From positions 1 through 41,956 of the forward strand of contig MNJR01000066.1 of NCBI GenBank assembly GCA_001920415.1: DNA of 41,956 bases, written 5' to 3'. Positions within the stretch are counted from its first letter, which is position 1, and each line of letters starts with the position of its first letter. The stretch comes from Acidobacteria bacterium 13_1_20CM_3_53_8 (lineage in GTDB: Bacteria; Acidobacteriota; Blastocatellia; Pyrinomonadales; Pyrinomonadaceae). The translations under genes and the position numbers were made by a program. Below, piece after piece: positions 59 through 7,218 of the stretch. The notes beneath the pieces are model-generated. The model was given only the letters and a program-made list of their open reading frames with translations. It ran no database searches and was not told the origin of the DNA.

Positions 59-3000
59 ATGAGGACTGACTGCTATTGCAAGGCTGGAACATTTTATGAA
101 CGAATGAAACCCTCATCTCTGGCTTACGTTTCTCTCCTGTCAATCGCATTGATAGCCGTTGCCCTGGTTCTGCTTCCCTCCTCTTCAAAAGCTGCTAAAG
201 CAAATCTGAATGAGGCTTCGGTGCAGGCTGCGACGAGCGCGCCTGACCTCACTTGGATTTCAGGCGGTCACGCTGGCGGCGTTGGTAAAGCGGCGCTCTC
301 GCCGGATGGGCAGATTCTTGCGACAGCAGATTACGCTGAAGTTTACCTGTGGCGATATTCGGATGGGCAGTTGTTGGGAACCATTGGCATGGCGGGCGTT
401 GATACTGTCAACTGCATTAAGTTCACGCCGGACGGCCAGTATGTTGTTGCTGGCGGCTCTTGGATTCCGGGCTATCCCGGAAATCCTTCAACGCTCAGGG
501 TGTGGCGAGTTTCAGACAGAAGCTTGGTGCGTCAATTCGATCTGCATAGTTCAGTAGGAAGTTTCGCGCTTTCAGCAGATGGACATTTCATTGTCGCAGG
601 GCACGGGTATGAGTCCGTTCTAGTCTTGGACTTCAACACAGGGGCGACGCTGCAAACTCTTGGGCCTTTCGCGTACACAGCTGTGGCGATTTCGCCGGAT
701 GGAAGTATGGCCGCAGCAACGGGCGCGGATCATTTTGGCGATCCTCCATCGGTTAATGTCTGGCGCAGGTCGGACGGAACGCTGATAACAAAGCTCACGG
801 GTCTCAGCTTCATTTCAAACTCGATTGCTTTCTCGCCTGACGGGCAATATCTTGCGGCGGGCGATTGGGGCGGCAATGGAACTCACGGGAAAGTGATTGT
901 GTGGCAAGCCAATGGAGAAAACTTTACTCCGATTCAAAGTCTAACTACACAATTGACTAGCTCTATTTACAGTCTGGCCTTTTCGCCGGACAGTCAGACA
1001 ATCGCCGCAGGTGGAGTTGATGATGAGCTATGGCTATGGCATCTGCCTGACGGCTCGCTGACTCAGTCAATCTCCGTGAATTTTAACAACGCCATCTGGA
1101 ACATAATCTTTTCAGACAACAACACGATTTTTGTGGGCGGCGCTAAAAACGTAAGCGACATCTTACGCGCTTCTGACGGAGCATGGTTGCGCGAAATTGG
1201 CGGCAACAGAGAGTTTGTTACTGCGGTCGCTTTCTCGCCCGATGGAAAATATTTTGCAGCCGATAACGGTAGCGTCGGGGGAGGCGGCAACTTCTGGGTA
1301 CAGATGTTTCAGTCTGACACTGGAGAGGGCGTGCGCGCATTCCCCATACATGAAGACATCATCAACTCCGTTGCGTTTTCGCCCGACGGACAACTACTAG
1401 CCTCTGCTTCAGGCTCGCAACCTCCAGACACGCGCGACACGCGCATCTTCATCGCGCGAGTTTCAAATGGACTTCAACAACTCGTACTCCCAGGGCACGC
1501 AGGAGGTACAACTTCAATCGCCTTTTCACCAGATAGCCAACTGCTCGCCTCCGGCGGCAGAGACAACGTGTTAGCCCTCTGGCGTGTGTCGGATGGAGCG
1601 GTGCTACGCTACGTCAGAGGACATTCAAACTGGGTGCAGTCGGTCGCATTTTCACCCGATGGTCAAACCATCGCTTCCGGCGGCGACTCTACAGTCAAGC
1701 TATGGAATGTCTCAGACCTAAGCTTAATCCGCACGATTCCCGGCAACGGTTATCCAGTAGGCTCTATAAGCTTTTCGCCTGACGGTCAAACTCTAGCGCT
1801 CACAACTTACAGCGCTATCCAACTCTGGCGCGTATCAGATGGAACTCTGTTGCGCACAATGTACGTTGAAGCCGGTGTCACAAATTTAGGGAACGTAGTC
1901 TTTTCAAGAGACGGAAGCGTTGTGATGGTTGCGGACGGCAGTTACCCGCCGACCATATGGTTCTGGAGAGTTTCGGACGGAGCCGTGCTTCAAACATACA
2001 AACAGGAGACGGGCTGGGTGCAGCCTCCGGTTTTAGCAGTCTCGCCTGATAACACGCAGCTTGGCATAGGGCGCTATGACTCGATTGTTGAAATGGCGCG
2101 TTTTTCAATCTCGAACGCTTCCTCGTACACGCCTAACTATGAAGGCAATGATGAGGCGACCGATTGTAATTCAATTTCAGGTTGGGCGTGGGACAGCAAT
2201 CAGCCCGATGGCATCGTCAATGTTGACATCTACGACGGCCAGACATTTTTAGCTACTATTCCTGCCAACAATTTCCGTCAAGACCTTTACGTTGCAGGCA
2301 AAGGTAGCGGCTATCATGGATTCAGCTACACAATCCCGGCAAGTTTCAAGAACGGAACGCCGCACAACTTCGGCGTCAGGGTCTCCGGCACAAGCACAGA
2401 GCTAGTAAACTCTCCCAGGTCTGTGACGTGCGGCTCGCCGCCTCCTCCGCCTCCTTCTTCTAACAGTGGTACGTGGACGACTGCGCCTCCTATGCCAACT
2501 GCGCGTCAGGGCTTCGCTGTCGGTGTAATCAACGGGAAACTATATGCAGTCGGCGGCGACAGCACCATTGGCCCAGGGTATGGCGGTGTGACGCCCAATC
2601 CTCTGAACACTCTGGAGGTTTATGACCCGGCGACTAACGCTTGGTCTACGCTTGCTCCCATGCCTACGGCGCGCTTTGGCCTGACCGCAGGAGTAATCAA
2701 TGGAAAACTCTACGCTGTGGGTGGCTTTAATAGCGGTTATCTGAGGACGCTTGAAGCGTATGATCCTGCAACCAATACATGGTCAACGCTCGCTCCTATG
2801 CCTGCGGCTCGCTATGAAATGGCTGCCGAAGTCATTGACGGAAATCTCTATGTTGCTGGCGGTTATGATCCGGCGGGCAATTCGAACACGCTACAAGTCT
2901 ATGACCCTGCGACCAACTTCTGGTCAACGTGGTCTCCTATGCCGTTGGGGCGATATAGATTGGCCGCCACTGTCATTAGCGGGAAACTCTACGCCGTTGC

Positions 3001-5029: not shown

Positions 5030-5482
5030 ATGCCCCCAAGGAAGACAAGTCGCTCGCCCCGTCCCCTTATTCTGGTCATTGACGAAAATGAGCAGAACCG
5101 GGTCATGCTGCGGTTCTATCTAACCAAAGAATACTATGATGTGGTAGAGGCTCTGACCAGCCAGGAAGCTTTTCAAAAAGCTATGGAGATGCCCCCTGAT
5201 CTGGTTATGATTGACCTGAATAATCCGCACCTGAGCGGCGTCTTAACCGCTCAGCGGCTTCGATCCATTCAGGGAATGAGCCACGTCCCGATTATCGCTT
5301 ACGCAGGCCCGGACAGTCAGGCATGCCGTGACGCCGTGCTGGCTTCGGGCTGCGATGCTTACGTCATTAAACCCGTAAACCCTTCTGTGATGATGAATGT
5401 CATCAAGAGTCAGTTGCACAGGCGCTCGACCGGGGTACTGCCTAGCAGTGACGTGACGCAACTGATATTCGCGGCAAAATAA
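5030..5482 (+). CDS. Single-domain response regulator (receiver domain)
   Basis: A 150-residue protein consisting of one CheY-like receiver domain (about 12-130) with a short basic N-terminus and an unstructured tail; there is no output domain. The acidic pocket is D18/E19 (VIDENEQN), the phosphoacceptor is D62 (VMIDLNNP) and the conserved lysine is K114 (VIKPV). The usual Thr/Ser before the fourth beta strand is replaced: the segment reads VPIIAYAG, with Ala92 where Thr/Ser normally sits. Phosphorylation-dependent signalling may therefore differ from canonical CheY proteins. No histidine kinase is adjacent, so the partner is unknown. It is monocistronic, with its own promoter at 4912-4939. 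Confidence 0.85.
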   Translation: MPPRKTSRSPRPLILVIDENEQNRVMLRFYLTKEYYDVVEALTSQEAFQKAMEMPPDLVMIDLNNPHLSGVLTAQRLRSIQGMSHVPIIAYAGPDSQACRDAVLASGCDAYVIKPVNPSVMMNVIKSQLHRRSTGVLPSSDVTQLIFAAK

Positions 5483-5500
5483 AGGGGGCAGCTTTTTTAC

Positions 5501-5528
5501 TTGACACTAGACTGAAACTTTATAAAAT
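5501..5528 (+). promoter_or_regulatory. Strong sigma70-type promoter in front of a non-coding stretch
   Basis: TTGACA (5501-5506), 16 bases, then TAAAAT (5523-5528). It sits just after the receiver gene's stop, and no plus-strand gene follows until 6208. The expected start of transcription is near 5535, directly ahead of the hairpin series at 5548-5659. Confidence 0.6.
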
Positions 5529-5534
5529 GCCTGC

Positions 5535-5670
5535 CACCTTGGGCGTTGCCGCTTGCGGGGTGAGGACGTAAGCGGCTTGAAGCTGAACGCTTCCGCCCCT
5601 CACAGTCACCCCAACGTGACAGTGATGACAGGCGGCGGTGGGTTGAGGACATCGCCGCCTATAATTTTTT
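5535..5670 (+). ncRNA. Candidate structured small RNA with GGA-loop hairpins
   Basis: Four stem-loops follow the promoter. H1 pairs 5548-5557 with 5567-5576 (10 bp, one G-U) around loop GGGTGAGGA. H2 pairs 5579-5583 with 5589-5593. H3 pairs 5600-5609 with 5616-5625 (one A-A mismatch). H4 pairs 5631-5640 with 5650-5659 (10 bp, one G-U) around loop GGTTGAGGA and is followed by TATAATTTTTT, like an intrinsic terminator. H1 and H4 share stem length and nearly identical 9-nt loops ending GAGGA, although their stem sequences differ. CCTCAC (5598-5603) could also pair with GTGAGG in the H1 loop. GGA in hairpin loops is the hallmark of CsrA/RsmA-sequestering RNAs, but this link is inference. I do not recognise a named RNA family. 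A short reading frame across it has no ribosome site. Confidence 0.55.
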
Positions 5671-5726
5671 CCGCGAATTTGATACAGAACATCTCACGCC
5701 CCTGCAAAGGAGAAAGAGAGAGCATG

Positions 5727-5799
5727 ATCCACTAAACCACACGAAACAACACGAAGAGAACTCAATCAATTTCGTGTCGTTTCGTGTGGTTTAGTGGAT
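5727..5799. repeat. Inverted repeat, TTCGTGTxGTTTCGTGTGG family
   Basis: The 29-nt arms 5727-5755 and 5771-5799 match at 28 positions (one G-U). The element lies between convergent genes. Together with the RNA candidate it accounts for most of the 382-base gap 5483-5864. Confidence 0.85.
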
Positions 5800-5864
5800 A
5801 ACTCTTCCCTTCATCCTTTCTGAACCCTTATATCGAACTTACATTAACCAACATTTTCGCAGGC

Positions 5865-6207: not shown

Positions 6208-7218
6208 ATGATGAAAAGCTCACGTCGTGAATTTCTAGGCGCACTGCTAGGCGCGCCGCTTGTTGTGGCGAGCGGTTGCAAGGCAATGCGGCACGAACAA
6301 TCTTTTGCTGTCTCGGCAGAAGCAGCCCCAGAAGCAGCCATAACGCCGCGCGTGACCAACTACAACGCGAGCGGGCGTGCGCTCATCGTTGAAGGAAAGA
6401 CGCTTCTTGTGGCGCTCACTTTCACGACTTCGATGAATCAGTTGAGCGGGAGTTTTCCTGTTCAGTTCGAAGCTGAGTCAGCAGGAAGCCAGAGCCTGAC
6501 AGAAGAACAGCCTCTCTACTTTTATCCTGCTGGAGACGGGCGCTCCTTTCGTACATTTCTATCAGCGCCGCTCGATGCAATCGCAGACTCTTATCAATTG
6601 CGCGTGACTGCGCGGCCACAAAATGGCGCTCAGCAGCAAGCCTCTCTCCCCTATTCCGTTCAGACAGGAGCGTATCGTCAGACGACGCTTACTCTGGATA
6701 GAAATTTCAGTAATCCTTCGCCCGAAATTTTAGAGCAGATGCGCCATGATTTTCAGACCATGCTGGAAATCTATCAGCGTAGAACAGAGCGGCGGTGGAG
6801 CAAGCCCTTTGTGAGACCCGTCGCGGGGCCTGATAGAGCCAATTTCGGCGACAAGCGAACCGTTAATGGAACAAAGCATTATCGTCATCAGGGACTCGAC
6901 TATCGCGCGCCAATTGGCACACCCGTTCATGCCATCAACGACGGAATAGTTGCCCTCTCAGGCGAGCAGTGGACGCCGGGGCAGACCATCTGCATAGATC
7001 ATGGCGGAGGCGTTTTTTCCAAATACCTACACCTTTCAGAACGTCACGCGCACGAAGGCGACGCCGTGCGGCGCGACGATGTAATAGCGCTTTCCGGGAA
7101 CACCGGCGGACAGCGCCCCGCGCCGCACCTTCATCTCGATCTGGTCGTCAACGGCACGCACGTTGATCCCACTGATTTCATGAACACGGCTGCGCGTCTG
7201 ATTGAGTTGGAAGGGTAA
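6208..7218 (+). CDS. Tat-exported M23 peptidase lipoprotein
   Basis: Zinc metallopeptidase of the lysostaphin/LytM (M23) fold, expected to cut peptide bridges in peptidoglycan or to act as an envelope regulator. The N-terminus carries a twin-arginine motif (SRREFL, residues 5-10), a hydrophobic stretch and a lipobox ending at C24 (VASGC), so a Tat-exported lipoprotein is likely. The middle (about 45-165) is a beta-rich domain. The catalytic domain occupies about 220-325 with H227 and D231 (HQGLD) and H307/H309 (HLHL), the full zinc-site pattern. The ribosome site AGGAG (6196-6200) is seven bases from ATG 6208. The gene stands alone and is followed by a long inverted repeat. Confidence 0.88.
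   Translation: MMKSSRREFLGALLGAPLVVASGCKAMRHEQSFAVSAEAAPEAAITPRVTNYNASGRALIVEGKTLLVALTFTTSMNQLSGSFPVQFEAESAGSQSLTEEQPLYFYPAGDGRSFRTFLSAPLDAIADSYQLRVTARPQNGAQQQASLPYSVQTGAYRQTTLTLDRNFSNPSPEILEQMRHDFQTMLEIYQRRTERRWSKPFVRPVAGPDRANFGDKRTVNGTKHYRHQGLDYRAPIGTPVHAINDGIVALSGEQWTPGQTICIDHGGGVFSKYLHLSERHAHEGDAVRRDDVIALSGNTGGQRPAPHLHLDLVVNGTHVDPTDFMNTAARLIELEG

Follow-up and report, generated by a model that had tools for sequence, protein, structure and literature searches.

A predicted class-wide small RNA family of Blastocatellia with a near-invariant hairpin loop, and RapZ as a candidate partner

Introduction

Does the non-coding stretch at 5501-5670 contain the gene of an independent RNA and, if so, what would its repeated hairpin loop bind? 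The window is the whole 41,956-nt stretch of Acidobacteria bacterium 13_1_20CM_3_53_8 that was analysed; the locus lies in the gap 3′ of a response-regulator-receiver gene (end 5482). To our knowledge, little is known about the small RNAs (sRNAs) of Acidobacteria, a dominant soil phylum. The original prediction was that of an sRNA gene whose twin loops, carried by divergent stems, bind a ligand in trans, most simply a protein of the CsrA/RsmA type.

The locus and its predicted transcript

A sigma-70-type promoter is found on the forward strand at 5501-5528 (TTGACA, 5501-5506; 16-nt spacer; TAAAAT, 5523-5528). It matches the consensus at 11 of 12 positions, which agrees with its description as near-consensus, and is the sole such site across 5380-5820, where shuffles predict 0.2. 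The predicted transcript is about 135 nt long (5535-5670, forward strand); its 5′ end is placed from the −10 box and its 3′ end from the T-run.

Four stem-loops had been proposed and all are recovered. The fold is more stable than that of shuffled sequences (z −2.81; 2 of 200 shuffles equally good). P2 (5548-5576) is a G-loop hairpin supported by the fold and by covariation (10-bp stem, 5548-5557/5567-5576; loop GGGTGAGGA, 5558-5566). P3 (5579-5593), defined by alignment and covariation, is the hairpin GAAGC-TGAAC-GCTTC with a conserved UGAAY pentaloop. Both are enclosed by P1, whose 5′ strand GGGCG (5541-5545) pairs with CGCCC (5594-5598); P1 was detected by permutation across 21 homologues and reads, for example, GAGCG/CGCTC in L035. 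The next hairpin (5600-5625; fold, relatives) has a CCCAAC loop, and at its position the copies L009, L034, L067 and L073 have CACAGCCCCWAAAGCTGTG-like hairpins; it is, with P3, one of two hairpins between the G-loop hairpins of the window. The last element (5630-5670) is an intrinsic terminator, identified by the G-hairpin survey and the terminator rule: a second G-hairpin (stem 5630-5640/5650-5660; loop GGTTGAGGA, 5641-5649) followed by the T-run ATAATTTTTT. The twin 9-nt loops on unrelated stems are thus near-identical, as claimed, but the last stem has 11 bp, not 10. The simple terminator scan accepts loops of 3-8 nt only, so this terminator, with its 9-nt loop, is not listed by it.

The minimum-energy fold adds a 5′ hairpin at 5526-5547. 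Because the predicted start is near 5535, this hairpin is probably not wholly transcribed; relatives favour the P1 helix over it. CCTCAC (5598-5603) had been proposed to mask the first loop. This pairing is possible in the window copy but is not conserved in relatives. A long imperfect inverted repeat (ATCCACTAAACCACACGAAA... / ...TTTCGTGTGGTTTAGTGGAT), with no sequence kinship to the family, lies just 3′ of the RNA (5728-5798).

Homologues, covariation and spread

A blastn search covering 60 genomes gave two clear homologues, whose stems differ and whose loop is identical. Further homologues were collected with a covariance model built from three sequences and by scanning the genome_contigs collection with a pattern; their records bear the names Pyrinomonadaceae, Blastocatellia and Chloracidobacterium. 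With E below 1e-10, 14 genomes contain 34 full-length loci. Matches of model R1 past about E 1e-4 were mostly chance on inspection. Pattern matches in L070 (Bathyarchaeota) and L075 (Alphaproteobacteria) have neither promoter nor terminator and were judged to be chance.

Covariation in the G-loop and UGAAY hairpins was measured on an alignment of 21 sequences. These sequences were chosen mainly by loop and core and not by stem, so the selection itself presupposes little of the pairing; the exceptions are a few sequences contributed by the first model, in which four inner stem pairs were included. Paired cells amount to 89.6% (77.6% in shuffles) and cells changed on both sides to 32 (12.3 in shuffles); none of 500 shuffles was as high in either measure. 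For P1 the mean is 4.29 pairs against 3.86, a value that none of 2000 permutations equalled. The homologues also keep the flanking signals: TTGAC-N-(16 nt)-TANAAT-like hexamers stand at the same position, with fixed 16-nt spacing from TTGAC to the −10 box, in 18 of 21 window-branch copies, and a terminator is found by the simple rule in 19 of 21. The window hairpins are not due to chance, since homologues from other genomes keep the loop and keep the stem with compensatory changes.

Three loops only, among 72 distinct G-hairpins picked at up to one loop mismatch, depart from GGGTGAGGA. A near-invariant loop on covarying stems makes a role of the loop in recognition well supported by the comparison, and the proposal of an independent sRNA gene with a trans ligand is strengthened by it. 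In the genome of the window, 30 occurrences of the GGGTGAGGA 9-mer were examined. Four lie on perfect stems of 9-11 bp; these are the G-loop RNAs of contigs C3 (window), C25, C119 and C136. Of the remaining 26, one has 7 pairs and none of the rest more than 3.

No covariance model of Rfam matches the window RNA at gathering score, and at E up to 10 no sensible match was obtained for the window RNA or for 14 related loci; the covariance search proposed earlier finds relatives but no Rfam family. A search of the open-access literature on the loop sequence gave nothing relevant among the 12 of 59 matches listed; the family could be present in papers behind subscription or in RNA-seq data that are unpublished. 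Acido-1 and Acido-Lenti-1 (RF01686, RF01687) are likewise uncharacterised sRNA motifs reported from Acidobacteria, but the family RNAs match neither model; separate Acido-Lenti-1-like elements occur nearby in one genome only. They are a pair in L120 of G009 (1148-1193, reverse strand, 36.7 bits; 1280-1325, forward strand, 26.6 bits; gathering score 37); the family RNA that stands between the EIIA gene and rapZ in this genome is a few hundred bases away.

Sequence comparison identifies 5501-5670 as a small structured RNA gene that belongs to a class-wide family, previously uncatalogued as judged against Rfam 15 and the open-access literature.

Module order, promoters and gene neighbourhood

The family modules are the hairpin with the near-invariant GGGUGAGGA loop, the hairpin with the UGAAY pentaloop and an intrinsic terminator. 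In the window branch, the P1 helix surrounds the GGGUGAGGA hairpin and the UGAAY hairpin, and the terminator follows. Model R2 matched just the G-hairpin in many genomes, and a second architecture was found on reading these matches. In this second, more widespread branch the UGAAY hairpin comes first, the G-hairpin second and the terminator last, its loop often being CUCCCAC or CCCAA. With a cut-off of E 0.001, the model of this branch, R3, detects the family in 94 of 162 genomes from the class Blastocatellia and in 41 of 53 genera (best E 2.7e-44); model E-values are rough and many of the genomes are fragmented assemblies. Beyond Blastocatellia, R3 gives one weak match only, in a single genome (E 7.7e-4). 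In genus g9 the family is nearly absent (R3 matches seen in G092 and G142 only), although rpoN and hfq are present in this genus and each of the six g9 stretches read contains rapZ; this suggests a loss there.

The order of the two conserved hairpins thus depends on the branch, suggesting that they are recognised independently. Two G-loops in one RNA are the most that were found. This design, noted in the window, recurs on unrelated stems in L094 and in a similar L063 copy near 6753. In L049 (1470-1552), a hairpin whose loop is CUUGUGGGAGG-like is followed by a terminator hairpin with the complete GGGTGAGGA loop; this may be another architecture within the family. Terminator loops of the sequence GUGGGAG are found in L035, L067, L073 and L135, and the perfectly complementary CUCCCAC in L119, L123 and L138 (the glmM-linked copy); by their sequences, the RNAs of the family could kiss one another through these loops.

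The branches differ in their promoters and neighbours. GG-N10-GC is the signature of sigma-54 promoters. It stands at a fixed upstream distance in 18 of 18 core copies (the best-conserved copies of the second branch), against 4.3% of shuffles. The gene glmM immediately precedes the RNA, in the same orientation, in 19 of 23 core copies, against 0 of 16 window-branch copies. The order in the genome of the window is cdaA, YbbR-like gene, glmM, RNA, M3-peptidase-like gene, aroB (the YbbR-like, M3-peptidase-like and aroB labels were given by reading). In G009, one paralogue lies between an EIIA gene and rapZ. Window-branch copies have no neighbouring gene in common, which argues for action in trans.

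Candidate partners of the loop

The reading that we hold with middling confidence, from sequence and synteny, is that of a multi-copy sRNA acting in trans, whose loop would bind a shared partner, with RapZ as the leading candidate. The G-loop, present twice in the window RNA, would contact this one partner; paralogues with different promoters would feed one pool, so that the window copy would serve as a decoy or titrator. RapZ is an adaptor that binds two stem-loops of GlmY and GlmZ in Escherichia coli, and if it is the partner, the RNA would play in Acidobacteria the part that GlmY/GlmZ play in controlling amino-sugar supply. RapZ leads because the best-conserved paralogue is apparently driven by sigma-54 and lies directly 3′ of glmM, and because rapZ lies in the rpoN operon: the genome of the window has rpoN and encodes in that operon a RapZ equivalog (E 8.3e-100). 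Within the reading of a shared trans partner, the case for RapZ itself is, by this analogy, about evenly balanced. GlmY is a sigma-54-driven decoy for RapZ (PMC7073468), and RapZ needs two stem-loops for RNA binding (PMC9841335). The resemblance to the GlmY/GlmZ-RapZ system of Enterobacteriaceae extends to the two stem-loops with a terminator, to related RNAs of shared structure, to the link with glucosamine-phosphate metabolism and to the presence of RapZ and RpoN in the same genome; the sigma-54 likeness concerns the glmM-linked paralogue only, the window copy having a sigma-70 promoter. There are differences: homology to GlmY/GlmZ is not detectable and their Rfam models are not matched, the family locus is glmM, the loop is near-invariant and the modules occur in either order. 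E. coli RapZ reads shape and charge, not loop sequence (PMC9841335), which leaves the near-invariant 9-nt loop unexplained and counts against RapZ. Co-occurrence was dropped as a discriminator and does not single RapZ out, since 10 of the 14 RNA-negative genomes examined have rapZ. The gene glmS was not found within the genome stretches examined. A fuller proposal seems to us rather unlikely, though worth stating: an independent sRNA-RapZ circuit, in which the sigma-54-driven glmM RNA and differently promoted paralogues, the window copy included, would compete for one sequence-specific loop-binding protein and tune amino-sugar and envelope supply, with modules working in either order.

A near-invariant single-stranded loop is also expected of a base-pairing seed, and a base-pairing sRNA, whose GGGUGAGGA loop would be a seed for mRNAs or a partner sRNA with UCCUCACCC-like sites, in the manner of Yfr1/Yfr2, is a possible alternative to which we give appreciable but lesser credence. 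Hfq is present in the genome of the window and in 153 of 162 genomes of the class, and the GUGGGAG terminator loops of some members are complementary to CUCCCAC of the core terminators of the second branch. The cyanobacterial precedent is close: the loci of the multi-copy Yfr2 family are not conserved, and its conserved motif is nearly complementary to Yfr1 (PMC6778093), Yfr1 carries ACUCCUCACAC (PMC2190773), and both systems share a conserved G-rich motif, conservation over a large clade and a lack of CsrA/RsmA homologues, RsmA homologues not being found in cyanobacteria with Yfr RNAs (PMC2662882). The family differs in that it has no Rfam match, that its motif is a 9-nt hairpin loop and that no Yfr1-like partner was found. 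Against base pairing stand the sites themselves: among 30 of the 31 TCCTCACCC sites of the genome of the window that were examined, one only abuts a possible start codon and no partner sRNA is evident. Moreover, the loop is G-rich, unlike the usual C-rich anti-Shine-Dalgarno seed, and base pairing leaves the UGAAY loop unexplained. The one abutting site is in L185, where TCCTCACCC, which complements the loop exactly, stands immediately before the ATG of a 443-aa frame inside a longer stop-free frame; it is a possible target. Overall, this antisense-target scan of the genome gave nothing convincing.

The ligand originally proposed fares worse. Decoys of CsrA/RsmA (CsrB, RsmX/Y/Z) do have repeated GGA-containing loops on divergent stems, and GGA lies inside the hairpin loops here, more than once per RNA in some members. 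However, CsrA (PF02599), for which a check had been advised, is found neither in the 96%-complete genome of the window nor in 56 of the 60 genomes searched (control genomes were positive), and is also missing from G029 and G004, the genomes of the closest homologues; in addition, the family has at most two G-loops per RNA and a 9-nt loop conserved along its whole length. A CsrA/RsmA decoy is accordingly barely credible. A structured element with an intrinsic terminator could also be a leader or attenuator acting in cis on a downstream gene, but no downstream gene is common to the window branch, and the next long same-strand gene of the window starts more than 500 nt past the terminator, which makes this highly improbable. 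We think it equally far-fetched that the element is a non-regulatory dispersed hairpin repeat, mobile or REP-like: window-branch copies do occur several times per genome at unrelated sites, but they come as whole units of promoter, RNA and terminator in which the spacer is fixed at 16 nt, and the family has two promoter classes, glmM synteny and compensatory changes.

Significance

The family offers a predicted class-wide, multi-copy sRNA in which the loop is fixed and the modules are swapped, and of which one member is putatively sigma-54-driven and syntenic with glmM. RapZ occurs in diverse bacteria, and its RNA partners in the literature cited here (PMC9841335, PMC7073468) are enterobacterial. 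The family would thus be a concrete candidate for a RapZ partner beyond Enterobacteriaceae.
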